Shown here one piece after another: positions 5,063 to 51,323 of a stretch of DNA of 64,000 nucleotides. The notes under the pieces were generated by a model. That model saw only the letters and a program-made list of their open reading frames with translations, was not told where the DNA came from and searched no databases. Source of the stretch: Microvirga sp. ACRRW (GTDB taxonomy: Bacteria; Pseudomonadota; Alphaproteobacteria; Rhizobiales; Beijerinckiaceae); NCBI RefSeq assembly GCF_022346925.1, contig NZ_JAKRNJ010000006.1, forward strand, positions 186,001-250,000, read 5' to 3'. The translations under genes and the position numbers were made by a program. How positions within the stretch are numbered: the first letter of the stretch is position 1; the number at the start of each line of letters is the position of its first letter.

Positions 5063-5335
5063 TCATGCTTGAGGGCGTATCGCAGGCTTCTTCCTCCTGA
5101 TTGCCTTATCGCCCTCCAAAAATCGCGTAATGGGCACCCTGAGACCTTCTGCAAGTTTTGCGGGGGTATCGATCGTTGCAGCCTTCTGCCCTCGCTCGAT
5201 GGAGGACAGATAGGCGCGGCTCATCCCGAGCTGAGCGGCAAGCTCTTCCTACCTGATGCCGAGCTGTACGCGCAACTCCTTCACGTTCCGCCCGAGAAGC
5301 GCCCTATGGGGAAGCACATTCGAATGATCGGCCAC
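5063..5335 (-). pseudogene. Broken XRE-family regulator, copy of the gene at 39196-39462
   Basis: Read from GTG (5335), the frame gives a helix-turn-helix protein closely matching the intact regulator at 39196-39462, including the shared segments HRALLGRNVK and QLGMSRAYLSSIERG. Codon 29, a glutamine (CAG) in the intact copy, is an amber TAG here (5249-5251), and the C-terminal tail differs (RRKKPAIRPQA). The GGATTCAATCC palindrome 27 bases upstream of the start is kept at the same distance as in the intact copy. Together with the next two entries it forms a decayed duplicate of the 39.2-40.4 kb module. Confidence 0.85.
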
Positions 5336-5676
5336 TGGATCGACGGCTTTCACGCACCTGAGGATTCAATCCTTCAACTGAACGTCGATTCCACCATTTG
5401 TGCAAGGGGCAAGCTCGGCACAAGGTGTGGCATCGTCACAAAGCCGCTCCCGGTTCCTCCAACTTTCCTGGACTGGACATGACCGAGCACTGACAGGCAA
5501 ATGACGTGCGAGATCAAGCGACCGCTCGTGCAGCTTTGGGATGGAATGAATATGGGACCAGAGCACCCAGTCTTCGCGTAGAAGAGACCGAGAAATTCAG
5601 GAGCTTGACTCCCAGCGGCAAAGTTGCCCCCTATAGAGTACAGAGCTAGCGAACGGCTCACGCGACCAAGACAGCT

Positions 5677-5754
5677 ATGAACCCTGAAATCGTGCAAGCC
5701 ACCATGGGCGCTGCCGCGCCTTCGAGGCCGCCACCTCCAGCGGCCTTCGTGTAG
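5677..5754 (+). other. Leader ORF, duplicate of the one at 39729-39806
   Basis: A 25-codon ORF starting MNPEIVQATMGAAAPSRPPP. It differs from the copy at 39729 by one silent change and two replacements (Met10 to Ile, Ala23 to Val). It contains four consecutive prolines (RPPPPA). The surrounding ~190 bases (5630-5820) are nearly identical to 39680-39870, more so than the coding DNA that follows. Here it precedes a truncated gene. Confidence 0.45.
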
Positions 5755-5791
5755 CACTCCGGGCTGGGAGGGGCCGATCAGTGTATGCGTC

Positions 5792-5926
5792 ATGTCCATA
5801 CTTGCCTCTCCCGCTACCAGCACCAGTGCCGCCACATACCCGATGCCCGGCTGTACGGGTTTTAGCTCCTTCAAGACCTCTCGGCCCATCCTCTATGCAG
5901 GATCACGACGAGTGGGAGTGAGGTGA
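5792..5926 (+). pseudogene. Truncated copy of the TnsA-like gene at 39844-40455
   Basis: The first ~36 codons (MSILASPATS, then PGCTGF and SFKTSRPILY) match the N-terminus of the 203-residue protein at 39844. The match ends abruptly at a run of unrelated codons and a TGA at 5924. The remaining five-sixths of the gene, the DUF6634 gene and the protease gene are absent. The leader upstream is better conserved than this coding stub. Confidence 0.8.
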
Positions 5927-28406: not shown

Positions 28407-28410
28407 CGAG
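28392..28410 (+). repeat. 19-bp direct repeat at dnaE2 3' end (copy 2)
   Basis: CGCAACTTTCGCTGACGAG, identical to 19683-19701 and again covering the dnaE2 stop codon. The two copies frame the block holding the sugar-type operon. Confidence 0.6.
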
Positions 28411-30842: not shown

Positions 30843-30854
30843 CGTCTTCTCGTC

Positions 30855-31409
30855 TCATGCCCGGCGTAGCCCCCGTTCGATCCGCACGCGATGATAGCCA
30901 TGCAAATGGACCTCCTGGCGGAGTTGCCTGATGTCGTGGACGCCAAATGCCACCGCCGCCTTCAACGGGCTGGCGAAGGTTGCATAGAAGGTCCAGCGTG
31001 TGCCAGCCGGCAATGTCGGATTCTGCCGCCGGTCAGTAATGACGACGTCGCGCGGGTCACTTGTGTTGCGAAAGGCATGGAAGGTGAACCAGTCGGACCG
31101 GCGATATCTCGCCGCTTTGGTGAAGGGCACGGACTGAACTTTCACGTCGATCTGGTCGAGTACCCAATCACGCTGCTCAAGGATCTGCCGCACCATATGG
31201 CCGACCATCTGCTTCACGCGGTCGGCTAGCACGTCCTCGCGGAATTCCGCAAGGAGTTGCTCCTCAATGCCCTCAACTGCAGGCTTTCCCAGTTCAGATG
31301 CCGTTTCGAGGCGGGCGACATTCTCGAGCCGCGTTAGAAATGCCCAGATGCGCTGGCCTAACTCGGACGCGTAGAGCGAGGCAAATTTCTCAGGTCTATA
31401 GGTGAACAT
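30855..31409 (-). CDS. Uncharacterised protein, first gene of nuclease-like operon
   Basis: Start ATG 31409 (MFTYRPEKFASLYASELGQR) behind GGATGG; the longer frame would begin upstream of the promoter. 184 residues: a helical N-terminal half (IWAFLTRLENVARLETASEL, LADRVKQMVGHMVRQILEQR) and a beta-rich C-terminal half (TRWTFYATFASPLKAAVAFG), ending Arg-rich. No recognised family. Transcription would start only ~15 bases upstream. Confidence 0.6.
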   Translation of the reverse strand: MFTYRPEKFASLYASELGQRIWAFLTRLENVARLETASELGKPAVEGIEEQLLAEFREDVLADRVKQMVGHMVRQILEQRDWVLDQIDVKVQSVPFTKAARYRRSDWFTFHAFRNTSDPRDVVITDRRQNPTLPAGTRWTFYATFASPLKAAVAFGVHDIRQLRQEVHLHGYHRVRIERGLRRA

Positions 31410-31424
31410 GACAGGCCATCCTTT

Positions 31425-31460
31425 ACCGGGCAAATATGCCCGGTTACTGGCCAATGTCAA
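31425..31460 (-). promoter_or_regulatory. Promoter with palindromic operator over the -10
   Basis: On the minus strand TTGACA (31460-31455), 17-base spacer, ATATTT (31437-31432). A perfect palindrome ACCGGGCATATTTGCCCGGT (8-bp arms, 31425-31444) covers the -10. The geometry is that of a repressor operator controlling the three genes 31409-28479. Confidence 0.8.
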
Positions 31461-31555
31461 TAGTATCGCATCAAACGGAAAAGCGAGTCGTCCCAATGCA
31501 GAGCGGCGGGCCATCCGCTATGGATCAGACGCAGTGCTTCCTCAGCAGTTAGCTG

Positions 31556-34456
31556 TTACCGGGATAGTTGTTCGGAGATATCGTACCTCCGTTCTCTTTG
31601 CCGGAAGGCTCTTGCACCACCCTCAAGAATTGCGCACACCCTATCCCGAATCCCTTGCGGACCATTATCTTCAAGAGCACCGGAGCTATACCTTATCCGG
31701 GGCAAGCCAGCTTGCTTCTGACAGTCGGCAACCACAACCTGCTCGGCGTCAGTGTTAACGACCAGGTTGGGATTATGCGTAACGAGAATTATCTGACGGT
31801 CACGCTTGGCGTGCCGAAAATGAGGGACGAGGAGCTTGTAAATCGAGTCGTTATCGAGATTTTCCTCTGGCTGGTCCACAATTAAGGGGCGGCGGTCATC
31901 CCGGTCCATAACAAGATAAAGGATAAGCAGGACAATTCCCTTTGTCCCGGGTGAGAGCTTTTCTAAGTCTGTGCCGTTGTATTTCAGACCATAGCGCAGC
32001 GATGTATGATCCAATTCGAACATCCACTCGAGCAACATCGTGGGCTGTACCGACGGCCTCAAGTACGACGGTGACTTCGACTCAACATCGAACATCGAAG
32101 CGAGCGCATCGAACGCTGCCTCGACGGCGATTCTGTTTCCTCCTGACCACGCTGGAGCTAATTCTGTCTTGGCGAACTTCTCCAGTTCGTCCAATGAGAC
32201 CGGCAGAGCGGAGTGCCGGCGTCCATCGATTAGAGCGTGGAAATTCTCAAGCCAATCGTCGATGCTGGTATGCCACCGGATCGAGAAATCGATCGGACGT
32301 TCTGCCGCATTAAGTTCCTCGAACTCCGTCCTCACTGGCGCGTACAAGTCCTCCAGGATCGCTTGCTCTCTCGTCAACGTGTCGAAGAAGGCGACGTAAG
32401 CGGCCTTCATTTCGGACCGGATCGCCGAACGGCGGTTCGCCTCCGGGCCCTCGACGTGAGCGATTTCGTCTCCCAAGCGTGCAGCGTGCTCCTCTTCTCT
32501 CGTGATCTGCGCTTGAAGCGCTTGGATCCTATCCCGCAGGACGCGGTCTTCGGAAGCACGACGCTTGACCTCGTCTAGCAGCCGTTGTGCACCGCGTATG
32601 GTTCCTGGGTAAGCGAAGTCATCCCCCTGGACTGTATTCCAATCTGTCTGAAGAGCCTCACGATGCCGTTCGATTGCTACATCGACTGTGGGACCAAACC
32701 GCGGGCGGAAGGCCTCCCGTTCGAGCCCAAGGATACCAAGGGTATCCAACATCGACTCGATCTCGCCGAAGAATCCCTCCGCGTCGGCTTTGAAAGCTTC
32801 GATACGGACCATGAGATCATCGGCAGTCAGAAGCTTTTCGCGAATGCCAGCCGCTTGAGCCTGAAGCTGCGACAGCTCTTGTTCCCGGGCGGCCAGATCC
32901 TCCGCGAACGCGGCCGCATCGCCTGTGGCGATGCTTACCACCTCCGCCCTCAAATCGTCCCGCCGCTTTTGGCAGCCGGCAAGCTCCTCGCGCTTGGAGG
33001 GGAGTGTGTCATGGCGCACCTTGAGTTGTACGAGTTCGTCAATGAGGCGCGCCATGTCCCCACGCAACCGGCTTCGCTCATTGCGCAAGGAGGCCGTGAG
33101 ACGATCTCGTAGACTGGAAAACGAGGATGAGCCGAATCGATCTCCTACCGGAGTGAAATTGAAGATGACCCTCTCGATTTCACCAACAAGCTCACGACCG
33201 TCGTAATCCTCTGAGCACAGCCGTTCTACAAATCGTTGCGAGAGATAACGAGCACGCTCGTCTCCCCCGGGATCGGACGGCGAGACAACCGTCTCCTCAC
33301 CGTTACGCCACCGAAGGCGAACGCTAACCCCGTCCAAGTAGTTGCCAGCCCTCTCAAGGAAGGACTTTCCCTCGTCGCCCTGCCAGCTTCCCGTTGCACA
33401 CGCGACGAGTTCAGCCAGAGCAGATTTGCCCGATCCTCGGGCTCCGATAATTGCGACAAGGCCAGCATTGAGTGGCAAGACGGCCGGCTCGAACCACCCC
33501 CCGCTGCCATCGCTCTCGATTGAGATGCTATCGATGACCTGGGAATCGATGTGCCTGGCGGGATGTTCTGCGTCGATGACGACCCGCTCCGCCGGCTCGT
33601 GCAGGACCTGTCTCAATCCTTCAAAGGTCGGATCCGCTTTGATCCAGCAATAGCGACGGCCGTCGGGTTCGAATAGCGTCACAAGCGCATGTGCGTCGGA
33701 GCCATGAAGGCACGGTTTTGGTCCGTTGCACCTTCTCATGGTTTCAAGGTCTATCTCATTCCCGGTCCCGCCTAACCAGAACGAACGGTCGCCTGCATTC
33801 GATGTGAAGATTGCGTGGCATCGGCTGGAAATCTGCATCCGCGCAGCGGCCCATCCCCCATTGTATGGGAGACCGCTGAGTCCATCGCGGCCTCCTGCCA
33901 TGACCAAAAGCGAGTTCGACCGAAGCCACTCCTCAGCATCGAGCCAACCGAAGAATAAGCTGGCGTCGATTTTGAACTGGTTTACACCTTCCTTGAATGC
34001 CGTGTGACGTTCGGCAAGCTGGGGATTGAAGTGGCGTCCGAGCCGCTCCAGGTCATCGGGCGTGCAAGAATAGTTTTCTCCGTTGAACTGGAATCTCAGA
34101 GCGCGGAATGCGCGTTCGATCCGATCCTCATGATCAGGTTCTTCGGGTGATATCAACAAATGCGCATTGAGGGACTGCCCGCTCGTGGTCTGCGGAGCAA
34201 GCCGAAATTCTATGTTGGGCACGAGGAGTTCGATGTTCCGGAGCCTACCCTGCTCCTTGTAGCGCCGCATGACGGAGTAGTTCCCAACGGTCAGGTAGTC
34301 TGTGACCCCAATCACCCTGACTTCGGTCTGGCCTTCTATCGCTTCCAGGTAGGCTTCCCATCCTCTAGGCCCGAATTGATCGTTGAGGGCCGTACCAGGA
34401 GTATGGACGTGAAGATCCCAGCGCCGCCATTCAGAACCCCGCGGAAAGCTAGTCAT
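31556..34456 (-). CDS. PHP-domain and SMC-like ATPase, TrlF type
   Basis: 966 residues, ATG 34456 behind GAGGGG. The N-terminal PHP domain begins WRRWDLHVHTPGTA (metal HxH at residues 16/18) and closes with CLHGSDAHA near residue 250. An SMC/Rad50-type ATPase follows: Walker A IIGARGSGKSALAE (~338-345), a coiled-coil region (residues ~480-720), and Walker B PLIVDQPEENLDND with ILVTHNPNLVVN near the end. This layout matches proteins annotated as TrlF family AAA-like ATPase. A DNA- or RNA-targeting defence role is inferred from architecture and island context. It ends ~95 bases before the promoter of the nuclease-like operon on the same strand. Confidence 0.85.
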   Translation of the reverse strand: MTSFPRGSEWRRWDLHVHTPGTALNDQFGPRGWEAYLEAIEGQTEVRVIGVTDYLTVGNYSVMRRYKEQGRLRNIELLVPNIEFRLAPQTTSGQSLNAHLLISPEEPDHEDRIERAFRALRFQFNGENYSCTPDDLERLGRHFNPQLAERHTAFKEGVNQFKIDASLFFGWLDAEEWLRSNSLLVMAGGRDGLSGLPYNGGWAAARMQISSRCHAIFTSNAGDRSFWLGGTGNEIDLETMRRCNGPKPCLHGSDAHALVTLFEPDGRRYCWIKADPTFEGLRQVLHEPAERVVIDAEHPARHIDSQVIDSISIESDGSGGWFEPAVLPLNAGLVAIIGARGSGKSALAELVACATGSWQGDEGKSFLERAGNYLDGVSVRLRWRNGEETVVSPSDPGGDERARYLSQRFVERLCSEDYDGRELVGEIERVIFNFTPVGDRFGSSSFSSLRDRLTASLRNERSRLRGDMARLIDELVQLKVRHDTLPSKREELAGCQKRRDDLRAEVVSIATGDAAAFAEDLAAREQELSQLQAQAAGIREKLLTADDLMVRIEAFKADAEGFFGEIESMLDTLGILGLEREAFRPRFGPTVDVAIERHREALQTDWNTVQGDDFAYPGTIRGAQRLLDEVKRRASEDRVLRDRIQALQAQITREEEHAARLGDEIAHVEGPEANRRSAIRSEMKAAYVAFFDTLTREQAILEDLYAPVRTEFEELNAAERPIDFSIRWHTSIDDWLENFHALIDGRRHSALPVSLDELEKFAKTELAPAWSGGNRIAVEAAFDALASMFDVESKSPSYLRPSVQPTMLLEWMFELDHTSLRYGLKYNGTDLEKLSPGTKGIVLLILYLVMDRDDRRPLIVDQPEENLDNDSIYKLLVPHFRHAKRDRQIILVTHNPNLVVNTDAEQVVVADCQKQAGLPRIRYSSGALEDNGPQGIRDRVCAILEGGARAFRQRERRYDISEQLSR

Positions 34457-39195: not shown

Positions 39196-39462
39196 TCAAT
39201 TCTTCCCTTTCCGCTTGCCCTTTTCATCGGTCGGAACCTCCTCCAACAAACGAGCGATCGTCACGTCGAGACCTTCTGCAAGTCTTGCAATCGTATCGAT
39301 TGTCGCTGCCTTTTCACCTCGTTCGATCGAAGACAGGTACGCGCGGCTCATTCCTAGCTGCATGGCAAGGCTTTCCTGTCCGAGGCCCCGCATGGTTCGT
39401 AACGCCTTCACGTTTCTCCCGAGAAGCGCTCTGTGAGGCGAGACATTCGAATTATCGGCCAT
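39196..39462 (-). CDS. XRE-family repressor of the protease module
   Basis: 89 residues, ATG 39462. A canonical Cro/CI helix-turn-helix: LRTMRGLGQESLAMQLGMSR, then AYLSSIERGEKAATID, followed by a Lys-rich tail (KGKRKGKN). Divergent from the TnsA-like/DUF6634/AAA-protease operon, so it probably represses both directions. The palindrome GGATTCAATCC lies 27 bases upstream of its start and is preserved in the decayed copy at 5362-5372. A broken relative is at 5063-5335. Confidence 0.9.
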   Translation of the reverse strand: MADNSNVSPHRALLGRNVKALRTMRGLGQESLAMQLGMSRAYLSSIERGEKAATIDTIARLAEGLDVTIARLLEEVPTDEKGKRKGKN

Positions 39463-39488
39463 TGAGCCAACAGCTTCCGCTCTAATGA

Positions 39489-39499
39489 GGATTCAATCC
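39489..39499. promoter_or_regulatory. Candidate operator palindrome GGATTCAATCC
   Basis: GGATT-C-AATCC, an 11-base palindrome 27 bases upstream of the XRE start codon. It is conserved at the same spacing in the duplicate (5362-5372). Half-sites AAGGATT/AATCCTT recur three times in 42845-42905, past the end of the protease gene. Confidence 0.5.
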
Positions 39500-39728
39500 T
39501 TTAAATGAACGTCGATTCCTTCATTTGTGCAAGGGGACACGCTCGCGGCTCGCTGTCAGAATTTCGACGACCAAAGCTACTGTGCAGATGACCGATAGGT
39601 AAGCGTCGCGACTGCTGATGGATATCTTCCTACTCACTATGGATATGCCGTGGCACTTGACTCACGGCGCCAAAGATGACCTCTATAGAGTACAGAGCTA
39701 GCGAACGGCTCACCCGACCAAGACAGCT

Positions 39729-39806
39729 ATGAACCCTGAAATCGTGCAAGCCACCATAGGCGCTGCGGCGCCTTCGAGGCCGCCACCTCCAGCGGTCTTC
39801 GTGTAG
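39729..39806 (+). CDS. Conserved 25-codon leader ORF with tetraproline
   Basis: ATG 39729 to TAG 39804, starting MNPEIVQATIGAAAPSRPPP and continuing with a fourth proline. It ends 37 bases before the TnsA-like gene. The duplicate at 5677-5754 keeps frame, length, stop and all four prolines. Runs of prolines slow ribosomes in the absence of EF-P, so it could be an attenuator peptide; alternatively the DNA or RNA is conserved for another reason. No strong ribosome site. Confidence 0.4.
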   Translation: MNPEIVQATIGAAAPSRPPPPAVFV

Positions 39807-39843
39807 CACTCTGGGCTGGGAGGGGCCGATCAGTGTATGCGTC

Positions 39844-40455
39844 ATGTCCATACTTGCCTCTCCCGCTACCAGCATCAATACCGCCAACTTTCCCCTTCCC
39901 GGCTGTACGGGCTTCATCTCATTCAAGACGACCCGGCCCATTCTCTACACAGCTCGGTTTATAAGAGACGCACTTGTGCAGTTGACGCTCGATTCAAGCG
40001 TCACTCTCATCGAGCCCCTCCCCGTCCCGATCCAAAATCTACCCGAGATAGTCCGGTCGGCCGTCATCGCACGGCGAGACGGTACTCGCTTGATCGTGGG
40101 TTTCATCGACACACCGCCAGAGCCGTCGGACGCCTTTCCAAGTCCGCTCGATGATTTGCCGACCGTACTTATCGCCAGAGAACAGGTTTTGGCTGAACCG
40201 CGCTGCTCCATTGCGCGAATGGTATGGGCCTGTCGGAAAACCCTCGTGTCCCCGGGCAATCGAGTCCGCATTCTTCATGCGCTCTCGAAATCGTGCGACG
40301 GCCTATCGTTGATCGATCTCAGCAATGTCGTGCGGGGACCGGAAGACCCAATCGATGCGATCCTGGCACTCGCCTGCGAGGGGCTCTTAGCGGTGGATAC
40401 GTCACAGCCCGTGACGCCAGAAAGCGTTGTTCGCCGCATTAGGCGCATCACCTAA
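39844..40455 (+). CDS. TnsA-like protein with degenerate catalytic site
   Basis: 203 residues. It can be aligned by eye along its length to the TnsA at 43712-44458. The FRGAV...RQVRFESLLE start aligns with FKTTRPILYTARFIRDALVQ, and the strand HYLDYIIDHEDETRTAVTIK with RSAVIARRDGTRLIVGFID. The C-terminal winged-helix-like part aligns as LIDDGILKLTGTTCLTRDSL with ALACEGLLAVDTSQPVTPES. The nuclease residues of TnsA (Glu, Asp, Lys) are replaced, so no DNA cleavage is expected. First full gene of the operon with DUF6634 and the AAA protease. The paralogy is inferred without a search. Confidence 0.6.
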   Translation: MSILASPATSINTANFPLPGCTGFISFKTTRPILYTARFIRDALVQLTLDSSVTLIEPLPVPIQNLPEIVRSAVIARRDGTRLIVGFIDTPPEPSDAFPSPLDDLPTVLIAREQVLAEPRCSIARMVWACRKTLVSPGNRVRILHALSKSCDGLSLIDLSNVVRGPEDPIDAILALACEGLLAVDTSQPVTPESVVRRIRRIT

Positions 40456-40533
40456 TCGCACGAACCTTCATGGCCTCGGAATCCGTCGGCGCACATAGCG
40501 CGCCAACCATACCTTTTTGCCTGGAGAACGATA

Positions 40534-40857
40534 ATGAAGACTGGCTATTTCGGCGGCAACGCCACAGCACTGCTCGAAAAACTTAATAATCTGAAAGCGG
40601 ATATCGCTGCCATTCAGAATGGGCACGGCCCTACCGAGGATGAACTTGCAACCGCACCGATCCTCACACACTGGTCATTCACCAGTCGTCCTCAGATCTG
40701 CCTTCAGGGTTTCGGAATAGACCATCCGCTCCTTGGCACGACACAGATCGTCACGTCGGGGCTTTTTGCCATCGATCCCTCCGCGGGCTGGGCACGGACC
40801 TACTCGCGCTTCTATCGATTGGCCCTCCCCGGGATTCCCGTAGGAGGTCGCTCATGA
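40534..40857 (+). CDS. DUF6634-family protein
   Basis: 107 residues, ATG behind GGAGAACGATA. The C-terminal two-thirds (PILTHWSFTSRPQICLQGFG, then HPLLGTTQIVTSGLFAIDPS) is a compact block that I associate from memory with DUF6634, a small family of unknown function in Rhizobiales. The N-terminal helix (NATALLEKLNNLKADIAAIQ) may be a coiled coil. Its stop overlaps the start of the protease gene (ATGA), so the two are translationally coupled and probably work together. Confidence 0.75.
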   Translation: MKTGYFGGNATALLEKLNNLKADIAAIQNGHGPTEDELATAPILTHWSFTSRPQICLQGFGIDHPLLGTTQIVTSGLFAIDPSAGWARTYSRFYRLALPGIPVGGRS

Positions 40858-42821
40858 GCATGTTTACAGACGAACTCGGCAACATCGCGCCGATGCAGCT
40901 TGCAAAAGATTCACCCAAGTCTCGCCGCACAGTCATCGCTCTCACATGCTTGGAGCCCTCCCTCCCTCGCGGTTTCAAAACCCGTCTTGAACGGGAAGCC
41001 CTCGTCATTCTCGTCCACCTGCCCGATGACACATGGGCTGATGCGGTTGAGGACGCTTTCAAAGGCTGTCTCCCCTTCTCGCGGCCGCCGATCGTCCTCG
41101 ATGGCGAAAATGCACGAGGTAGGGATCTGCGTTGGTTCAAGATGCAGGCAGCTAGTGCTCTGGCGGAGGGACGTTGTTTCGTCATTTTATGCGATGATGC
41201 AAAGATAAATCTCAATGCCGCATTGGCGACAATCGCAGATGTCGAGATCACCCTCGCGCCACCATCGTCCAAAACGATACGCAAGCTCATGAGGTCATTG
41301 AGTTCAGAATCTGAACCGATCAGAGTGTCGTCCAATCTCACCGACGACCTTTGCAAAGACCTCGATTTCAATGAAATCGCGATGATATTTCGGCCCGGCC
41401 TCAAGCCCGCGGAAATTGTCCGACGCCTGCAAGCCGTTCGCGCTTCGAAGCAGCTCCCTGTTGGGCAACCGTTGCGGACGAAGCATGGGCAGGATCCTTC
41501 CACACCGCATCTTCAAGATCTCTACGGCTATGGTGAGGCTAAAACATGGGGCTTGGAACTGCTTGACGACCTTGCAGCGTTCCGCGAGGGCCGCCTTCCC
41601 TTTACCGCTCTCTCAGCACGGGTTGTGCTGACCTCGGAACCCGGACTCGGCAAGACGAGCTTCGTGCGCAGTCTCGCACGATCAGCCAACCTGCCACTCG
41701 TCGCCTCCTCCGTCGCCAGTTGGTTCACGACAAGCTCAGGCTATCTCGATGGCGTCTTGCGGGCGATCGACAAAGTCTTCGCCGAGGCACGTGAGAAGGC
41801 TCCCGCCATCCTCTTCCTCGATGAAATCGACGCTTTGCCAAGCAGAGCTAGGCTGAATGAGCGTGGAAAGAGTTTTTGGCTCCCTGTTGTCACCCACATG
41901 CTCACCCTGCTAGACTCCGCAGTCTCTGCTGAGAACGAGAAGCTCATTATCGTTTCGGCAACAAATCACGCTGAGGCGCTCGATCCAGCTTTGCTCCGGC
42001 CCGGTCGCCTTGATCGTGTCATCAGGATTGACCACCCGGACATACCGTCTATCGCCGGCATCTTGCGCCAGCACCTCGGCGCGGATCTTTCCGAACACGA
42101 CCTTGGCCCGATCGCGCAACTCGCCGTAGGCGCAACGGGTGCCGAGCTGATGGGCCTCGTGAAAAAGGCGCGCGCACTCGCCCGGATGGCGGATCGACCT
42201 CTGCGGCTCAGCGATTTGACCGAGGCGCTGGCGCCGACATCCTCAGGCCGTTCCGCCGAATTGGATCGCGTGATTGCGGTTCATGAAGCTGGGCATGCCG
42301 TCGTCGCAACCATTCTCATGCCGGACATGGTGAGCCATGCCTCCTTGACCCGACTCGGGTCCGCCGACGGGCATACGAGAATGCTCCTCACGGATGGAAG
42401 CTTGATGACGCGAGCCTCAATTGAGGATGCGGTTACGATGCTTCTCTCGGGCTATGCTGCCGAGGAGCTCTGCTTCTCTGCGGCGAGTACGGGATCAACG
42501 ACTGATCTTTCCACCGCGACCCGGTTGTTATTCCTTGTCCATGGCGCTGCTGGACTCGGCGAGACACTCGCGCCAATCGGAAAGCCGGAAAACGCCGAGC
42601 ACGCACTGCTGCTCGATTCGAGCTTGCGCAGAGTCATTGAGAAGGAACTTCGGCAGCTCCTCCAGCGCGCACGAACTTTGCTTCGAGAAAATAGTGACGC
42701 ACTTGATGCGGTCACCGACAGGCTCCTGGCTGAGCGAATTCTTTCAAGCCAGGCGATTAAGTGCCTCGTGATGCAGACACGCAAAGGATTCACCCGAACA
42801 TCACGAAAAGCAATCGAATGA
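40854..42821 (+). CDS. Soluble FtsH-like AAA+ ATPase with M41 zinc protease domain
   Basis: 655 residues. Residues 1-200 have no membrane helix, unlike FtsH, which has two. AAA+ core: Walker A SEPGLGKTS (261-269), Walker B ILFLDEIDALP (319-329), sensor SATNHAEALDPALLRPGRLD with arginine fingers (368-388). M41 protease: HEAGHAVV (His477, Glu478, His481) and the third ligand in GYAAEEL, then STTDLSTAT (Asp551). All catalytic residues of both domains are present, so an active ATP-driven protease is expected. Coupled to DUF6634; 890 bases separate it from tnsA. The N-terminal domain presumably selects substrates. Confidence 0.9.
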   Translation: MSMFTDELGNIAPMQLAKDSPKSRRTVIALTCLEPSLPRGFKTRLEREALVILVHLPDDTWADAVEDAFKGCLPFSRPPIVLDGENARGRDLRWFKMQAASALAEGRCFVILCDDAKINLNAALATIADVEITLAPPSSKTIRKLMRSLSSESEPIRVSSNLTDDLCKDLDFNEIAMIFRPGLKPAEIVRRLQAVRASKQLPVGQPLRTKHGQDPSTPHLQDLYGYGEAKTWGLELLDDLAAFREGRLPFTALSARVVLTSEPGLGKTSFVRSLARSANLPLVASSVASWFTTSSGYLDGVLRAIDKVFAEAREKAPAILFLDEIDALPSRARLNERGKSFWLPVVTHMLTLLDSAVSAENEKLIIVSATNHAEALDPALLRPGRLDRVIRIDHPDIPSIAGILRQHLGADLSEHDLGPIAQLAVGATGAELMGLVKKARALARMADRPLRLSDLTEALAPTSSGRSAELDRVIAVHEAGHAVVATILMPDMVSHASLTRLGSADGHTRMLLTDGSLMTRASIEDAVTMLLSGYAAEELCFSAASTGSTTDLSTATRLLFLVHGAAGLGETLAPIGKPENAEHALLLDSSLRRVIEKELRQLLQRARTLLRENSDALDAVTDRLLAERILSSQAIKCLVMQTRKGFTRTSRKAIE

Positions 42822-43711
42822 CCTTTGCGACCCTTGTACAATAAGGATTTCTTCGTCTGCGCAATAATATTGAATCCTTACTGTCAATAATCGCGCCAAA
42901 GGATTGAGTATTTGTAGCAAAGAATTCATTCAAGAATTCAACAAATGTGGACGACATCCCATAACAACGGAGAAAATCAACAGATCAAGCTCTGCATGTT
43001 AACGATTTATTAACCAGATATGACGCCTATCAACCGAATCACTACTTGTATCGATCGGGATTTCGAGGAATCAATCTTTGGGGATCCCATTGATTCCAAA
43101 TGTCAGGAGAATTGCCATGCACTGGCCGTAAACAAAAAAGGCGCACCAAATCCGCGAGGATCTAATGCGCCTTAATTCTCGATCGCCGCTTTTAGCTTGG
43201 AGGCAGGAGCGGCGACAAATTTGGATCAGATAATCCAATGAAGGCACTCTGCCACACGTGCTTGCGGATCGCAAGTCAGCCGGCGAATTTTCGTGCCTCA
43301 TGGATGTCCGGTCACCTGAACCCTTTCGAATTTACAGGTGCTCCATGAAACCAAACTTGCATCCTTCTACAAACCACAGATCACGTCTGCGCGCATTGAT
43401 CAGGCAGATTGCCGATCGAGCTACCGTTGTCGGTTCAACTCAAGCTCCCACGGCCGCAGACTGTGGCTCCATCACACGGACTGCAACGGATAGCCTGGTC
43501 TATCACCCGCACCCGGGCCGCAGATGTGCGCCTGATCCTCAAGGCACAGGCATGCGAAATGCCGATGCCATTGCGGATGCTTCTGTCCCGACACGCGGAC
43601 GCGCTCCCCGCCGAATAGCGGCCTGATCTGACGCAGCCGCGCAGTCCGCGCCCATCACATCCCACCATCATCCCTTCGGACAACCGTTCCGGAGCACAGG
43701 AGAACTTTGCC
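42822..43711. other. Long non-coding region before tnsA, possible transposon end
   Basis: About 890 bases. 42840-43060 is AT-rich, with half-sites AAGGATT/AATCCTT three times and two GAATTC boxes (42925-42950). In Tn7 the transposon end lies just upstream of tnsA, so TnsB-binding repeats are expected here, but no clear set with a matching inverted end was found. 43133-43173 is a hairpin (separate entry). A 69-codon frame (43409-43618, TTG start) is weakly protein-like and is not claimed. Confidence 0.45.
43133..43173 (-). terminator. Intrinsic terminator on the minus strand
   Basis: Minus-strand read: AAGGCGCA, inner stem ATCC-tcgc-GGAT, TGCGCCTT, then a T-run (TTTTTTG). Outer arms 43166-43173 and 43138-43145. 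No protein gene ends here on that strand, so it may close a short untranslated transcript starting between tnsA and 43180. Confidence 0.6.
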
Positions 43712-44458
43712 ATGAGCAAGCCCAATCTACCCCGCCTTCCCCAGTCCTTCCGCCGCCCAGACATCCTGCCTGAGCCAACTTGGTCCCGGCGCGCTGGCAA
43801 GCTCTGGGTTCCGCCTGAGCCCAGCAAATCCGAGCGCAAGATTCCTCTCAAGTCGATCGCCTCCTTCCGCGGTGCCGTCCTCGATACCGCGGCGAACCGC
43901 CAGGTCCGCTTCGAGAGCCTGCTCGAGGAAAAGGTCCTGTGTCTTGTGCAAGCCTTCAGGAAAGACATCCGCGCGATCCACGATCAGGTGCTTGTGACCT
44001 ACCGCGACGGGAAGGGTGTGCCGCACAAGCACTACCTCGACTACATAATCGATCACGAGGACGAGACCCGGACCGCGGTCACGATCAAGCCCGCCAGCAA
44101 GGTCGAGAGCAGCCGCATCCGTTGGGTGCTCGGCCAGATCCGTGCCCAACACAGAGGCACACTTGCCCACCGCTTCGTGCTGATCTCCAGCGACAGCGTC
44201 ACGCCCGACCGGGTGGCTACCGCCCGCCTGATCCTACGGGCCCGCCGCCTGCGTAACGAGGCGGCTATCGCGTCGATCCGCCCGCTCGCCGAAACCCTTA
44301 CCGGAGCGGCTCCGATCTCGGCGCTGCTCTCCGCCACCCGCAATGACGCCCTCGGGTTCATGGCCGTGGTGAACCTGATCGACGACGGCATCCTCAAGCT
44401 CACCGGTACCACCTGCCTCACCCGCGACAGCCTCGTCCAAGCCGTCGCATCCCGCTGA
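43712..44458 (+). CDS. tnsA: TnsA-like heteromeric transposase endonuclease
   Basis: 248 residues, ATG with AGGAGA nine bases upstream. The nuclease core has VRFESLLEEKVLCLVQAFRK (catalytic Glu, residues ~70-90), then HKHYLDYIID (Asp) and TAVTIKPAS (Lys near 132), i.e. the E-D-K triad of Tn7 TnsA, which cuts the 5' strands at the element ends. A winged-helix-like C-terminus (DALGFMAVVNLIDDGILKLT) follows and would bind TnsC. First gene of tnsABC-tniQ; 23 bases to tnsB. Confidence 0.85.
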   Translation: MSKPNLPRLPQSFRRPDILPEPTWSRRAGKLWVPPEPSKSERKIPLKSIASFRGAVLDTAANRQVRFESLLEEKVLCLVQAFRKDIRAIHDQVLVTYRDGKGVPHKHYLDYIIDHEDETRTAVTIKPASKVESSRIRWVLGQIRAQHRGTLAHRFVLISSDSVTPDRVATARLILRARRLRNEAAIASIRPLAETLTGAAPISALLSATRNDALGFMAVVNLIDDGILKLTGTTCLTRDSLVQAVASR

Positions 44459-44481
44459 TCCTTAACCCAGGAGTGTTTCCC

Positions 44482-46674
44482 ATGACGAACGCTACCTCTT
44501 TTCCCGCCCTCACCTCTGACACCGCCATCGAGCGCGTGATCGCGCCGCGCCGCTTCACCCGGTACGACCGCATCACCATCGACGGCACCGCTCGCATCCC
44601 GCTCTCCAGCACCGGAAACGGGCACGTGATGCGCCGTCTCGACGACCCCAACCTTAGCGAGACCTTCACCCATGCCGAGCTCGACACGCTGCACCGCCAG
44701 GGCCGTCTCAAAGTCGAGCGCAATTATTTCCATGCCGTCCAGGCCGAGCTGCGCTCGCTGACCGGAAATGTGACCCTGCTCGACCTGACGCAGCGTGCTC
44801 GAACGACTGTCATCTTCCGCCAGCGCATCTGCGACCGCTTCCTGCAACTACAAGCCCAAGGTCTCGTCTCCCTCTCCGACAAGTCCATGAAGATCGCGAT
44901 CAAGACCATCAGGGCCGAGCTGATTGATGAGGAAGACGCAAAGGGCCGCCACAGCTCCAAGTCCATTGTCCTGCCGCGGGCACCCAGTCCGCGCACCGTG
45001 CGCCGTTGGCTGAAGCAGTACGAGGCCTGCGGCTTCGAACCCATGAGCCTGTGCGACCGCTACGCGCTCAGTGGCGACCGCACGCTGCGCCTGCCGCTCG
45101 AGGAGCGGCAGCTCATGGACACCTATGCCGAGCGGTACCTGAGCACGCTCAAGCCCAGCATGGCGACGCTCTACGCCAACCTCAAGGAGGAGATCAACAC
45201 GCGCAACCAAGCGCGCAAGGCTTCAAAAAAACGGCCTCTCGTCACCCCCAGCCGCGCCGCGTTCGAGCGGGTAATCGGCAAGATGGACCCGATGCAGGTC
45301 TACGCCGCCCGCGAGGGCGAGGAAGCCGCGAAGAAAAAGTTCTTCATCGTCAACGGCGGCCTTCAGGTCAGCCGCCCGCTTGAGCGCGTCGAGCTCGACG
45401 AGTGGACCATCCAGCTTCAGTCTCTACTGGTCGACGCTGGGGTCTGGAAGACCATGACTGCAGAAGAGCGCAAGGCGATCGGGACCCACCGCTTCAAGCT
45501 CGTGACGGCGATTGACGCCTACTCGCGCTGCATCCTCTCGGCCCGTGTTGTGAAGGAAGTTTCCTCAGCCGCCACCATCGCCGTTATCGCCATGGGCATG
45601 TCCGACAAGAGTGCCTATGCGCTCGCTGCGGGATGCACTGCGGCGTGGGACCAGGGCACCGATGCTGCGTGGGAGACCGCCTGCAACGATGCCGGATCCG
45701 CCCAGATCGCCGACGACGTGCGCGCCGTCTATCTTGGCCTGGACATCCGCCACCACATCACCCCGGCGGGCGTGCCGCAGTTGCGCGCGCGCAAGGAGCG
45801 CTTCTACCGCTCGATCCACGAGATGCTCGTCGCCCTGTTCGAGGGCCGCACCTTCGCCGACATCTTCGAGAAGGGCGATTACAACGGCGAAGCCCGCGCT
45901 TCCACTACCGCCGATATCCTCGGCCAGGCAATCGTGCGCTGGCTCGTCGACGTCCATCATCAGCGGCCCCACGCAGGCCTCGGCGGCCGCACGCCGGCCA
46001 ATGTGTACCGCGACGGCGTGCAGGAGCACGGTATCCTGCCAGGGCCGGACGCGGACCAAGCCCGCGCGCTCTTCGGCACCACCGTCAAGCGCCGCATCAC
46101 CAATTCGGGCGTACGCTTCCTTGGTTTGAATTATCAGTCGCTCGAGCTTCAGAAGGCGCGTCGCCACGTAGGCCAGAAGCCAGTACTGGTCCGCATCGAT
46201 CCCGACAATCTGGGCCACGTCTCGGTGCGCACCAAGGACGGCTGGCTGACCGTCGCCTGCAAACGCGAAGGCTTCGAAGGCGTGCCCGTCCAACGCTGGG
46301 TCGCCGCGCAGGCAGTGCTGCGCCGCAAGTATGCCGACGAGGCCAAACTGACCGAAGACGTGGTGTTCGCAGCCATGCGCGAGATCCGCGCCATGGCCGA
46401 CGAGGCCGCACGACGCGCGGGCATCGCCTCTCCGATCCTGCGCGGCGTCGACTACGACAAGTTCGAGCGGCTGCACTTCCGCACGTTCGATCTGGACCGT
46501 GCCGTCGGCGAAGCCGCGGACATTGAGGACCTGCTGTTCGACGCCGAAGCCGACACCGCGTCCGCGTCGAGTGACGACGACGTGGCCTCGGCTGCTGGTC
46601 CCGTATCCCTCGATGAGGACGAATTCGAAGACGGCTTCGACGACTACGGCGGCTCCTTCTTCACCAAGGAGTGA
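44482..46674 (+). CDS. tnsB: TnsB-like DDE transposase (Mu C-terminal type)
   Basis: 730 residues from ATG 44482, behind CAGGAG (GTG 44473 is in frame but overlaps that site). Helix-turn-helix DNA-binding N-terminus, then an RNase H fold: first Asp in VELDEWTIQLQ (~308), strand FKLVTAIDAYSRCILSARVV, second Asp in ACNDAGSAQIADDV, and Glu in ARKERFYRSIH, giving a complete DDE. C-terminal Mu-type beta barrel and an acidic Asp/Glu tail (EDEFEDGFDDYGG). Joins 3' ends to target DNA and binds the element ends and TnsC. Confidence 0.92.
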   Translation: MTNATSFPALTSDTAIERVIAPRRFTRYDRITIDGTARIPLSSTGNGHVMRRLDDPNLSETFTHAELDTLHRQGRLKVERNYFHAVQAELRSLTGNVTLLDLTQRARTTVIFRQRICDRFLQLQAQGLVSLSDKSMKIAIKTIRAELIDEEDAKGRHSSKSIVLPRAPSPRTVRRWLKQYEACGFEPMSLCDRYALSGDRTLRLPLEERQLMDTYAERYLSTLKPSMATLYANLKEEINTRNQARKASKKRPLVTPSRAAFERVIGKMDPMQVYAAREGEEAAKKKFFIVNGGLQVSRPLERVELDEWTIQLQSLLVDAGVWKTMTAEERKAIGTHRFKLVTAIDAYSRCILSARVVKEVSSAATIAVIAMGMSDKSAYALAAGCTAAWDQGTDAAWETACNDAGSAQIADDVRAVYLGLDIRHHITPAGVPQLRARKERFYRSIHEMLVALFEGRTFADIFEKGDYNGEARASTTADILGQAIVRWLVDVHHQRPHAGLGGRTPANVYRDGVQEHGILPGPDADQARALFGTTVKRRITNSGVRFLGLNYQSLELQKARRHVGQKPVLVRIDPDNLGHVSVRTKDGWLTVACKREGFEGVPVQRWVAAQAVLRRKYADEAKLTEDVVFAAMREIRAMADEAARRAGIASPILRGVDYDKFERLHFRTFDLDRAVGEAADIEDLLFDAEADTASASSDDDVASAAGPVSLDEDEFEDGFDDYGGSFFTKE

Positions 46675-46760
46675 CCATGCCCGTCCTGCCCCGCCCCCGG
46701 GAGCCGCCCGTCGGCTCCCGCCTGCCCGTTCCTCCCGTTCCGAACCTTATTGGAGTCCCT

Positions 46761-47957
46761 ATGACCGACCCGCAGAACCCGCACCTCTCCACCGCCGTCA
46801 CCTTCTTCAACCCTGCCGCACCGACACCTGAGGTTTCGCCCGTGAGCGACACCGCCCATCCCGCCGTCTCTGAGACGCCAGCTGATGATCCCGTCGCCCG
46901 CCTGCGCCGTCTCCAGGGCGACAAGCGCGCCGCCCGCAACGCCCGAGAGCTAGAGGTTCAGGCGGCCCATTTCGAGACGGACCGTGACAAAGATGTGAGG
47001 AAGGGTCTTGAGGAGTTGGCCGATACGCTTCTGCGCAACCTCGCCGCCGTCGAGTCGGATGAGCACGAGGCGCATGGCCGCCTCGCCGAGGGGCGAACGT
47101 TCGTGCTGATCGGCGGCTCCGGCGCCGGCAAGTCGCGAACCCTCCAGCATCAGTTCGCCACCAACCCCGAATTTCTGACAGATGACGGCAAGCCCAGTCC
47201 GCTCCTCCTGTCGGTCACAGCGCCGGCCCCCTGCACCATGAGAATCCTCGCCAAGACAATCAACACCGCAACAGGCTATCAGACCCACCGTGATCCCAAA
47301 GAATCCGAGGCGTGGGATCTCGTGCGCCACAATCTCGAGCTGCGTGGCATGCGCTTCCTGCACATCGACGAGTTCCAGCACGCGCTCCTGAGCCGCAACC
47401 CGGTCGAGATCCAGAAGATCCGCGACTCGTTGAAAAGCCTGTTGCAGAACCCGCGGTGGCCCGTGAACCTGATCCTGTCCGGCCTGCCCGAAGTTGCCGC
47501 CTTCATCGAGGAAGACGTCCAAATCCGGCGCCGCTGCACTTTCGTGCGCTTCGATCCTCTGCGCTTTCCCAAGGACGTTCCCATGGTCAAGAGCATGATA
47601 GCCTTCTACGGTAAGACCAAGGGCGGGCTCGATCTCGGCGACGTCCGCAGGACCGAACTCGTGTCGCGGCTGATGCATGCCAGCCTAGGTGAGCTCGGCC
47701 TCACGATCGAGTTCATCCAAGATGCAATCGGCCAGGCGCTGAGGGCCGAGTCCCCGACACTGGAGACAGTGCACTTCGCCAAGGCCTACGACAGGCGCAC
47801 CGGATGTCCGGAGGGGCTCAACGTCTTCACCGCCCAAGGCGACTGGACGGCGATCGATGCCCGCCGGGCGCTGTTCCCCGACGAGGCAGCCGATGAGGAC
47901 GAGGCGAACGAGGCTGGGAAGAAATCCAAGAAATCCAGCAACCCGAGGACCAAGTGA
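46761..47957 (+). CDS. tnsC: TnsC/TniB-like AAA+ ATPase
   Basis: 398 residues from ATG 46761 (GGAG six bases before). An upstream ATG at 46677, next to the tnsB stop, would add a Pro-rich stretch of 28 residues. Walker A FVLIGGSGAGKSRTLQ, Walker B MRFLHIDEFQHAL, and an arginine-rich sensor region (QIRRRCTFVRFDPLRFP) are present. In Tn7-like systems TnsC forms filaments on target DNA and passes the target choice of TniQ to TnsAB. Its stop overlaps tniQ by one base (TGATG). Confidence 0.9.
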   Translation: MTDPQNPHLSTAVTFFNPAAPTPEVSPVSDTAHPAVSETPADDPVARLRRLQGDKRAARNARELEVQAAHFETDRDKDVRKGLEELADTLLRNLAAVESDEHEAHGRLAEGRTFVLIGGSGAGKSRTLQHQFATNPEFLTDDGKPSPLLLSVTAPAPCTMRILAKTINTATGYQTHRDPKESEAWDLVRHNLELRGMRFLHIDEFQHALLSRNPVEIQKIRDSLKSLLQNPRWPVNLILSGLPEVAAFIEEDVQIRRRCTFVRFDPLRFPKDVPMVKSMIAFYGKTKGGLDLGDVRRTELVSRLMHASLGELGLTIEFIQDAIGQALRAESPTLETVHFAKAYDRRTGCPEGLNVFTAQGDWTAIDARRALFPDEAADEDEANEAGKKSKKSSNPRTK

Positions 47958-49798
47958 TGCAGACCATCGTTCCCGTTCCCATCACCCTAGGTGCGGACGA
48001 GTCGCTGGCCAGCCTGAATTCAGGCCTAGCATCCCTGTTCCGGCGAACCGCGCGCACCTTCTGCCTCGACATGGCCTACTCATTCCAGGCGATCGTCGAT
48101 GGTGAGGCGGCCGCCATCAGGCGGCTTGCCGAATTGAGCCGGATCGACGCCGCCAACCTCGAAGCTGCGGCCCTCGTGCGGGTCGGAGAGCGCCAGTACA
48201 GACTCGGGGGCGAGATCTTCACTCGCACCAGCCTCAGCCGCCGGACATTGCGCGGCTGCCCCCATTGTCTCCTCGACGACATGGCGGGCGGCAGCGTTCC
48301 TGAACGCCGTCCCTACGGGCGCAATGCTTGGCTGATCGCCCCGCTGCGCACCTGTCCCCAGCACAATTGCGGCCTCGTGGAGCTGTCGCGCGACGAGACA
48401 CCCGGCCTGATGCACGACTTCGCCTTTCTGGTGAAGCCCGTCCTCCCGCGGCTCGAGCAGCTTGCGCTGCAAGCGCCGGAACGCCAGCCGTCGGCGCTCG
48501 AGAAGGCGCTGGGCGACCGCCGTCTCGGCCGGCCGATCTCGCCTTTCCTCGACAGTCTGCCCTTCTATGCCGGGGCGCGGTTGTGCGAGATAGTCGGAGC
48601 GGTGGCCAAACATGGCGCGCAGGTCCGCCTCGAAACCCTGTCCGAGGCAGACTGGTACGACGCTGGCGCCGTTGGGTTCGCCATCGCGGAGCCGGGCGAA
48701 GGCAGCCTGCGCATGTTCCTGTCCGGCCTCCAAGACGCTTTCCGCTATGATCGGAACGGCTCGGGACCGAAGGCTATGTTCGGGCGCCTGCACGACTGGC
48801 TTGCGCATGAAACCGATGACACCGCCTACGATCCGATCCGCGACATTATCCGGCGCCATGTCGCCGAGACCATGCCGATCGGCGACGGCGAGCTCGTCCT
48901 TGGACAGGCAGTGGAGCGCAAGGTCCACTCCGTGCATTCCGCATCGCGCGAGTACGGCGTCCATCCCAAGCGGCTCAGGAAACTTCTGCACGCTGCGGGC
49001 CACATCCGGGAGTCGTCTGCAAAACTCAGCGATGAGCGGACGGTGTTCGATGCTCGGGCCGCTCAATCTTTCCTTGAGCAAGTGGCGGACTCCCTACCGC
49101 TGACCCAGGCCCGGGCATATCTGAACGCGCCGCGGCCGCATGAGCGGTTGCTGTTCGAGGCCGGCTTCATCCGCCCGATGATCCTGGGCGGCACGGAGGA
49201 CCTCAATCACCATGCTTTTGCCCGTTCGGATCTCGACGCCTTCCTCGCCCGGCTCATGGCGCGAGTATCGGTCGAGGGTGAGGCGGATCTTGTATCCATT
49301 CTGCAAGCGGCGAAGAAGGCGAACTGCTCGGCAATGGAAATCGTCGGGCTGATCCTGGACGGGCGGCTGGTGCGCGTCGGACGCGACGCGCGGACGACGG
49401 GTTACCTCTCGGTTCTCGTCGACCCTAATGAGATCAAGCCCCTCGTGCGCCGGCCTGACCATGGCGGCCTGTCCCTGCGCGCAGTCGAGAAGGCGCTCGG
49501 CACCGACACCCGAGTGGTAAAGGCGCTGATCGCAGCTGGTCACCTGCCCGCGACGCGGGTGATCCATCCGGTCAAGCGCAATGAGCAGACCGTGGTGCTG
49601 CCGTCCGAAGTCGAGATATTCGCGGCACGCTTCGTATCGCTGAGCACAATTGCACGCGAGCACGGCTGGGCGATGCGGACGCTGAAGCCGGCCCTGCGCC
49701 AGGCCGGGATCGTACCGTGCTTCGATCCCGGTGAGGTACACGCCAGCTTCTACGAGCGTGACGCGATCCGAGTCTGGACGGCGTCCCTGCACACTTAA
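47957..49798 (+). CDS. tniQ: TniQ/TnsD-family target-selection protein
   Basis: 613 residues, ATG 47957. The N-terminal TniQ domain has a zinc-binding set LRGCPHCLLDD and LRTCPQHNCGLVEL (CxxC...CxxH). A long C-terminal part (residues ~330-613) contains repeated helix-turn-helix-like segments (REYGVHPKRLRKLLHAAGHI, STIAREHGWAMRTLKPALRQ), so it resembles TnsD in size and layout rather than the short TniQ of CRISPR-associated elements. It probably binds a fixed attachment site. No cas gene or CRISPR array is present in the window. Followed by a strong terminator. Confidence 0.9.
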   Translation: MQTIVPVPITLGADESLASLNSGLASLFRRTARTFCLDMAYSFQAIVDGEAAAIRRLAELSRIDAANLEAAALVRVGERQYRLGGEIFTRTSLSRRTLRGCPHCLLDDMAGGSVPERRPYGRNAWLIAPLRTCPQHNCGLVELSRDETPGLMHDFAFLVKPVLPRLEQLALQAPERQPSALEKALGDRRLGRPISPFLDSLPFYAGARLCEIVGAVAKHGAQVRLETLSEADWYDAGAVGFAIAEPGEGSLRMFLSGLQDAFRYDRNGSGPKAMFGRLHDWLAHETDDTAYDPIRDIIRRHVAETMPIGDGELVLGQAVERKVHSVHSASREYGVHPKRLRKLLHAAGHIRESSAKLSDERTVFDARAAQSFLEQVADSLPLTQARAYLNAPRPHERLLFEAGFIRPMILGGTEDLNHHAFARSDLDAFLARLMARVSVEGEADLVSILQAAKKANCSAMEIVGLILDGRLVRVGRDARTTGYLSVLVDPNEIKPLVRRPDHGGLSLRAVEKALGTDTRVVKALIAAGHLPATRVIHPVKRNEQTVVLPSEVEIFAARFVSLSTIAREHGWAMRTLKPALRQAGIVPCFDPGEVHASFYERDAIRVWTASLHT

Positions 49799-50375: not shown

Positions 50376-51323
50376 TTGTCGACCGTATTCTTCTCTTACT
50401 CGCATAAAGATGAAGATCTTCGTGACCGCCTTGAGGTTCACCTCGCAATGCTTAAGCGGCAGGGTCTTATCGATGCTTGGCATGATAGGCGCATTGCCGT
50501 TGGCAGCGATCTCGATAACAGCATACGCTCTGAATTAGAAAAGGCAGAGGTAATCCTGCTCCTAGTTTCACCTGACTTCCTAGCGTCCGACTATTGCTAT
50601 GATATTGAAGTGACGCGCGCGATGGAGCGTCATGTTGCTGGCGAGGCGAGAGTAATTCCTATCATACTACGCCATTGCGAATGGAAGTCTGCCCCGTTCG
50701 GAAAGCTACTTGCAGCACCCAAAGACGGAAAGCCAATCAATACATGGACTGACTTAGATGAGGCATTCCTTGATGTTGTGCAGAAAATCAAAACCGCTCT
50801 TCCAAAGGCTAAGCCTTCACTTGTTACACCACACCGTGAGCAGATGAGTACAAAGTCCATCTCTCATGGAGCGCGTTCTAGCAACCTGCGTCTTGCTAAG
50901 ACCTTTACAGAAGCGGACAAAGACCGCTTCTTGGATGAAGGATTTTCCTTCATGGCGAAGTTTTTCGAAAACTCATTGCAGCAACTGCAAGAGCGAAATG
51001 AGGGTATAGAAACAACCTTCAAGCAGATTGATGCGAACCGTTTTACAGCGGTGATCTACCGTCATGGAAAGTCTCTCTCGCGGTGTAAAATCCAGCTGGG
51101 CGGACGGTTTGAAACAGGCATCACATTTTCTTCAAACGATCGCATTGATGACGGGAGCTATAATGAGAGCCTTGATGTAGAGGCGGATGACCAAGGTCTC
51201 TACTTCAAAGCCTCTGGTATGTGGAGTTGGGGTGAGCAGCCTAAACGACACCTGACTTATGAAGGAGCTGCTGAGTACTTTTGGTCCATGCTTATGAGAC
51301 CCATACAGGATCGGCAGCAGTAG
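50376..51323 (+). CDS. TIR-domain protein
   Basis: 315 residues from TTG 50376 with AGGAGAG eight bases before. Residues 1-145 are a TIR fold: VFFSYSHKDEDLRDRLEVHL, box 2-like IAVGSDLDNSIRSELEKAEV, ILLLVSPDFLASDYCYDIEV. Glu78, in CYDIE, sits where NADase-active TIRs have their catalytic glutamate. Residues ~160-315 are an unassigned domain, perhaps a sensor. Bacterial TIR proteins often deplete NAD+ or make signal nucleotides in phage defence. AT-richer than the tns genes. Confidence 0.85.
   Translation: MSTVFFSYSHKDEDLRDRLEVHLAMLKRQGLIDAWHDRRIAVGSDLDNSIRSELEKAEVILLLVSPDFLASDYCYDIEVTRAMERHVAGEARVIPIILRHCEWKSAPFGKLLAAPKDGKPINTWTDLDEAFLDVVQKIKTALPKAKPSLVTPHREQMSTKSISHGARSSNLRLAKTFTEADKDRFLDEGFSFMAKFFENSLQQLQERNEGIETTFKQIDANRFTAVIYRHGKSLSRCKIQLGGRFETGITFSSNDRIDDGSYNESLDVEADDQGLYFKASGMWSWGEQPKRHLTYEGAAEYFWSMLMRPIQDRQQ

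Follow-up and report, generated by a model that had tools for sequence, protein, structure and literature searches.

A soluble FtsH-like protease module with a TnsA look-alike recurs beside Tn7-like transposons

The 64,000-nucleotide stretch of the Microvirga sp. ACRRW genome analyzed here (contig NZ_JAKRNJ010000006.1, positions 186,001 to 250,000; "the window" below) carries a Tn7-like transposition operon and, directly upstream of it, a module comprising a soluble protease of the FtsH type (PROT, in which an AAA+ unfoldase is joined to an M41 peptidase), a DUF6634 protein and a 203-residue look-alike of the transposase subunit TnsA (X203). X203 has the TnsA fold and has lost the catalytic residues, those of PROT are intact, the genes form an operon, and PROT is found docked time and again on the tnsA side of such elements. 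Our tentative conclusion is that Tn7-like transposons of the window's order (Rhizobiales) and its relatives, among which the named members are mostly Alphaproteobacteria, use the module as an accessory that can be exchanged, and that X203 may be its adaptor to the transposition machinery.

Results

Layout of the module and of the Tn7-like operon

A first-pass annotation, made from the letters of the window, had described an XRE repressor, a TnsA-like protein, a DUF6634 protein and a soluble protease at 39196-42821, next to tnsABC-tniQ. Our analysis confirmed this arrangement, and tnsA, tnsB, tnsC and tniQ were found together in one operon at 43712-49798, as expected of a Tn7-like element:

39196..39462, minus strand: XRE-family (Cro/C1-type) helix-turn-helix (HTH) regulator, 88 residues (HTH_3, E 6.4e-14)
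39844..40455, plus strand: X203, 203 residues, TnsA-like without nuclease residues, with a C-terminal winged helix (profile and fold match)
40534..40857, plus strand: DUF6634 protein, operon partner of PROT (PF20339, E 4e-17)
40854..42821, plus strand: PROT, unfoldase-protease of the soluble AAA+/M41 (FtsH-like) type; about residues 24-200 form an N-terminal domain of its own, probably alpha/beta
43712..44458, plus strand: the element's TnsA, with Glu, Asp and Lys of the active site retained
44473..46674, plus strand: TnsB-type DDE transposase
46671..47957, plus strand: TnsC, TniB-like AAA+ ATPase (TniB, E 5e-12)
47954..49798, plus strand: TniQ (TniQ, E 4.5e-15)

X203 and PROT

The protein starting at 39844 had been thought to be a TnsA homologue stripped of its nuclease residues, and this was borne out by profile, by fold and by the residue columns. 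The TnsA fold is present in the model of the protein (profile match 97%), with an alignment to the TnsA structure 1F1Z that spans 180 residues, and across 21 X203 proteins the catalytic Glu and Lys of TnsA are absent from all (0/21 each) while the Asp is kept in 11; the X203 of the window has none of the three. The TnsA-TnsC complex 1T0F is also among the fold matches, which makes TnsC the natural candidate for a target of X203. X203 is the commonest upstream partner of PROT: it is found in 15/26 tns-linked rows and in 9/41 of the others with 2.5 kb or more of upstream DNA (p 0.004), where a few of the loci counted were themselves retrieved via X203. At one locus (L143; loci and genomes carry our L and G numbers) X203 stands 378 bp before tnsA with no PROT within 10 kb. 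X203 relatives also occur in stretches of ~20 kb without the protease, at G000:C4 (L145) and at L146, one of the two being in the window's own genome.

PROT belongs to the M41 family by Pfam (PF01434, 75.6 bits against a cut-off of 29.9), and the AAA+ and M41 catalytic residues, the HExxH motif and the distal Asp zinc ligand included, are intact in all 62 unsplit members longer than 600 residues. Hydropathy gave no N-terminal transmembrane helix in the PROT of the window, the top 19-residue stretch scoring 1.33, so that the earlier description of a soluble FtsH-like protease with its catalytic residues in place holds. With 178.5 bits, PROT falls short of the NCBIfam FtsH equivalog cut-off of 600 bits. 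The DUF6634 protein passes its profile cut-off (PF20339, 62.9 bits vs 27) and its gene adjoins the protease gene at many loci; at L159 it occurs without a protease nearby.

Linkage counted from the transposase

A search for TnsB across 397 genomes of the order to which the window belongs, with no more than two candidates scored per genome, gave 29 places in 25 genomes, and profiles built in this analysis were run on the DNA around them. Of the 29 places, 15 have PROT upstream of tnsA/tnsB at a distance of no more than 10 kb, which makes 15 of the 21 that were informative. The remaining eight comprise a second copy in G050, a 3.2-kb contig of G132 and six places with short upstream flanks (L253, L258, L262, L264, L266, and L267), in whose retrieved DNA no PROT was seen. 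Two of the positive places, L153 and L154, have less than 1.3 kb upstream and were retained since a protease fragment reaches the contig edge; the fairer figure is 13/19 without them, and 12/18 if the window itself is also set aside. L277, which the profile scored as PROT (112 bits), turned out to be another AAA protein and was excluded from the count. In eight elements PROT and tnsA share a strand and the end of PROT is 466-891 bp short of tnsA; two of these eight have DUF6634 in the gap.

A survey of gene families covered 34 elements, listed by TnsB or TnsA, and in each the 10 kb of upstream DNA. By profile, PROT was found in 15, X203 in nine and DUF6634 in seven; clustering by BLAST gave 17 (two of which are other AAA proteins), six and six, respectively. 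The next BLAST family occurs in three elements and all others in at most two.

Linkage counted from the protease

In the 25 TnsB-positive genomes, the PROT profile found 33 places above 340 bits (lower ones were left out), seven of them in the single genome G375. Thirteen of these 33 genes lie within 10 kb of tnsB, compared with 0.18 expected for random placement. Extending the distance to 26 kb raises the number to 15, every one of them on the tnsA side (binomial p 6e-5). A scan of genome contigs with PROT, limited to the best 80 loci among 445 relatives, gave 49 PROT and 31 ordinary FtsH loci, and tns genes were present in the stored flank of 11/49 PROT loci and 0/31 FtsH loci (Fisher p 0.005), a comparison that is less clean than the TnsB-anchored count since the FtsH control loci come from many phyla.

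On plasmids, nine records were common to the best 60 PROT rows and the TnsB listing, with one Burkholderia record, an ordinary-FtsH-like match, omitted. The two genes are 18-97 kb apart in six of them, with PROT always on the tnsA side, and more than 0.8 Mb apart in three; the spacing was taken by eye from two tables and, of the six, PROT was confirmed by profile in L028 only.

Could the module and the tns genes meet merely as co-residents of genomic islands? Both are island genes and many PROT copies lie away from tns, as this explanation would have it. We nevertheless consider it unlikely, given that no other gene family shows comparable docking in the 34 elements, that in the TnsB-positive genomes the 15 PROT genes within 26 kb of tnsB are without exception on the tnsA side, that in eight elements the gap is 0.5-0.9 kb with both on the same strand, and that X203 is a homologue of TnsA itself.

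The link is strong, not exclusive

The first-pass annotation had suggested tabulating the neighbours of the protease, and the outcome is divided: the TnsB count above speaks for a link, whereas 38 of the 49 loci drawn by PROT alone (within the best 80 loci among 445 relatives) lack tns genes in the flanking DNA stored, which extends to 10 kb at most. The latter figure counts against a transposon accessory, and so do the following observations. Six of the 21 informative elements have no PROT within 10 kb (L143, L152, L156, L157, L263, and L265), with PROT 21-24 kb off on the same side in L156 and L157. None of nine plasmid elements (five from Rhodobacterales, four from Hyphomicrobiales; 9 of 37 matching records were retrieved) and none of four further class-level elements has PROT within 10 kb; in the class-level sample, L271 holds TnsB fragments only, genome G693 is not included and the element L268 carries two DUF6634 genes. 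At L036, which is one of the 11 PROT loci with tns genes, tniQ is 9 kb away and PROT is on the tniQ side. The strand is not fixed, 10/15 nearby PROT genes being co-directional with tns (p 0.30, not significant), and X203 too is present without tns nearby. The partner gene of PROT varies and includes nuclease-like and phosphoesterase genes, as is more usual in defence. For 23 of the 26 linked loci, distances between PROT proteins were compared with those between TnsB proteins and showed no correlation (Mantel r 0.057, p 0.21), so the two are not inherited together. Lastly, the modules of L046, which has tns, and L049, which has none, share 77% DNA identity, and the similarity ends near the module borders.

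In a PROT tree of 74 rows, the tns-linked ones are scattered: no fewer than 19 changes are needed if tns within 10 kb is scored, and no fewer than 14 if direct adjacency is, so that the pairing probably arose repeatedly. The tree was made with FastTree, has several weak forks and long branches, and omits rows shorter than 380 residues. The 26 tns-linked rows among the 74 are a biased rate, many loci having been retrieved via TnsB, TnsA, X203 or DUF6634. On this view a movable unit would have been recruited several times over, and the pairing does not look like one old linkage.

Exchangeable partners and defence

At other loci, a calcineurin-like phosphoesterase replaces or joins X203; its gene is beside PROT in L028, L033, L038, L051, L070, and L158, and overlaps the end of the PROT gene by four bases in L028 and L051. 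The partner in one plasmid copy is annotated as GIY-YIG, with a Pfam match below the cut-off. At seven loci (L029, L066, L075, L083, L085, L091, and L104) the machine is split into separate AAA+ and M41 genes, with DUF6634 between the two in L066 and L104, and upstream of the split genes all seven have a PD-(D/E)XK-like protein; its PD and D-x-K motifs are those we take to mark a nuclease. A Pfam scan of two copies of this protein matched no family, and it was rejected as an X203 homologue for want of any profile similarity. The split loci with their PD-(D/E)XK-like protein are a candidate separate system. The genes after PROT in loci without tns are varied: the 67 scanned (of 72; ten split or partial rows were omitted) include three phosphoesterases, three phage integrases, two resolvases and two relaxases. 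Genes for TIR and cyclic-oligonucleotide (CBASS) proteins are found near the plasmid copies L027 and L028.

These observations bear on a second reading, according to which the module is defence cargo: PROT, with DUF6634, would be a sensor or regulator core, X203 and the PD-(D/E)XK-like, phosphoesterase and GIY-YIG proteins its swapped partners, and the position by tnsA a favoured cargo slot. It is nearly as likely as a role in transposition. The first-pass annotation had mentioned cargo defence as an alternative; partner swapping has strengthened it, and it stays one of two readings. It is also in keeping with the separate inheritance of PROT and TnsB, with the defence neighbours (the TIR and CBASS genes just named and a ThsB gene at 50376 in the window), and with the integrases, resolvases and relaxases beside copies that lack tns. 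On the other hand, the models of PADLOC (PADLOC-DB of 2023) match PROT over the AAA domain only (IetA and TRIP13), and none matches X203 or DUF6634. Loss of the X203 active site makes a nuclease effector unlikely in this copy. A mere cargo slot would also leave unexplained why PROT is docked beside tnsA in 15/34 elements when other families reach no more than 3/34, and why the commonest partner there has specifically the fold of TnsA.

The XRE regulator, candidate operators and a relic copy

Three further features of the window concern control of the module:

39488..39500, no strand: perfect palindrome AGGATTCAATCCT in the XRE/X203 interval, a candidate operator (two in the window at no more than one mismatch vs 0.11 expected)
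42843..42909, no strand: three AAGGATTnnnT half-sites in alternating orientation in the PROT/tnsA gap, candidate XRE sites (eight in the window vs 1.3 expected)
5200..5905, plus strand: relic second copy of XRE, promoter and X203 N-terminus

The relic, with XRE, the promoter stretch and X203 up to codon 37, suggests that the island once contained a second module that has since decayed. It is 95% identical in DNA to the intact copy over 201 bp upstream of X203, with lower identity in the XRE part, and retains the palindrome at 5.4 kb. The ~190 bp before X203 (39660-39860 vs 5608-5808) are more conserved between the copies than the adjoining coding parts. This stretch had no match in the plasmid collection; there was no Rfam match to a structured RNA in the window, and the stretch folds no better than its shuffles.

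A search with the window's XRE at 67 other protease loci found no close homologue and four weak matches (20-24 bits) several kilobases off. XRE was thus rejected as a conserved part of the module, and the earlier claim that the protease is regulated by it is weak; the XRE of the window may add local control through the palindrome and the half-sites. ImmR and ImmA of ICEBs1 are a repressor-protease derepression pair, and by analogy XRE could repress the module and tnsABC via the AAGGATT sites until PROT destroys it and frees transposition. The retention of the palindrome in the relic, the half-sites between PROT and tnsA, and an annotated HTH regulator divergent from the DUF6634 gene in the plasmid copy L027 would all suit such a switch. 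We regard it as highly improbable, however: besides the missing close XRE homologues, Pfam places PROT in M41 and gave no match to a peptidase domain of the ImmA type, and the module has neither the ImmA peptidase nor the conserved XRE partner of an ImmA/ImmR-type pair.

A special conserved hairpin in the PROT/tnsA gap, first noticed by eye in four gaps, was dropped. The best hairpin exceeded all four shuffles in 6/15 such gaps, compared with 4/8 control intervals upstream of tnsA without a protease.

Element boundaries and neighbouring genes

Ends of the Tn7-like element were sought as terminal inverted repeats with 5-bp duplications, and the intervals next to tnsA and next to tniQ were searched for repeats; nothing rose above noise, and no convincing ends were found. 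The tnsA side looks internal to the element because backbone-looking genes come after tniQ in annotated plasmid elements. For Tn7, the attachment-site gene is glmS. The protease gene was considered as a flanking attachment site of this kind and set aside, as no run of TnsB-site-like repeats was seen between PROT and tnsA and the tnsA side looks internal.

Directly after tniQ, the window carries a homologue of ThsB (Thoeris, TIR; 50376-51323, PADLOC E 1e-126), and close to it, at ~52.35 kb, we read chromosomal-looking genes as starting again. On the minus strand at 29922-34456 are a protein with weak matches to the PD-T7-1 and PD-T7-5 models and a 966-residue Ppl-like protein (PADLOC E 7e-31), both defence-like cargo. 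The 3' end of a DNA polymerase gene, presumably dnaE2-like, is duplicated (27937-28410 vs 19227-19701, 82% identity), as if an element had inserted there bringing its own gene end.

Discussion

A proposed role in transposition

The presence of an AAA+ protease together with a dead paralogue of a transposase subunit suggests an adaptor that leads the protease to complexes containing the partners of TnsA. Most probably, X203 would engage TnsC or TnsAB via its TnsA-like surface and C-terminal winged helix, and as an adaptor would hand the transposition complex to PROT. PROT might then pull apart the very stable product complex after insertion, and/or might keep the levels of TnsA and TnsC, and with them the rate of transposition, low; the substrate and the direction of the effect are what we infer from the gene content. 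Control of transposition through TnsA/TnsC complexes had been raised in the first-pass annotation, and the recurrent Tn7 link favours it; the link is not exclusive, and action on TnsA or TnsC is the conjectural part of that proposal. The full version of this idea is doubtful, if possible: a family of Tn7-like transposons would carry its own proteolytic machine, with a dead TnsA mimic as adaptor, which disassembles or meters TnsABC as a mobile counterpart of host ClpX, is exchanged between elements and is re-used with nuclease-like partners elsewhere.

Should the transposon have its own unfoldase and TnsA-mimic adaptor, a dedicated disassembly or dosage factor would be named, turnover of the transpososome would become directly testable, and a matched unfoldase would be at hand for engineered systems. 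The product complex that Tn7-like and CRISPR-associated transposases leave behind is believed to be stable (PMC12326709). If the module serves defence instead, it would represent proteolytic defence in which nuclease-like partners are interchangeable, and of such a system the searches made returned no description.

Those searches covered a literature largely without subscription journals, so that absence from print is not implied. They found no mention of DUF6634, and no description of the module under Tn7-like cargo, ClpX and TnsB, M41 anti-phage systems, or phosphoesterase-AAA+ protease defence. The accessible parts of a survey of Tn7 target selectors mention no such protease, the word "protease" there denoting laboratory reagents (PMC10293859). 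Where Tn7-like transposons and FtsH are named in one paper, FtsH comes up in a figure legend, in connection with HflK.

Comparison with known systems

PROT is related to FtsH and other M41 proteases and differs from them in having no membrane helix by hydropathy, a different N-terminal domain, a score below the FtsH cut-off, and neighbours, DUF6634 and X203, that set it apart, as does the division of the related machine into AAA and M41 genes at seven loci. The anti-phage system IetAS combines an ATPase with an S8 peptidase. The AAA ATPase of PROT is related to IetA, whereas PROT has its own M41 peptidase, and X203 and DUF6634 have no PADLOC counterpart. X203 resembles the TnsA of Tn7 in profile and fold over most of its length, the C-terminal winged helix included; in contrast to TnsA it lacks the catalytic Glu and Lys, is additional to an intact TnsA, and shares an operon with a protease.

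The closest functional precedent is ClpX. Host ClpX pulls apart the MuA complex. For a Tn7-like CRISPR-associated system, ClpX is reported to raise integration in human cells, and in a selection in E. coli the system was less active once clpX had been deleted; disassembly of the complex left after transposition is the hypothesised task of ClpX (PMC12326709). The likeness to PROT is a functional analogy, that of an AAA+ unfoldase working on a transposition complex. ClpX, however, is a host protein, whereas PROT comes with the element, combines unfoldase and peptidase in one protein, and would act on a putative substrate.

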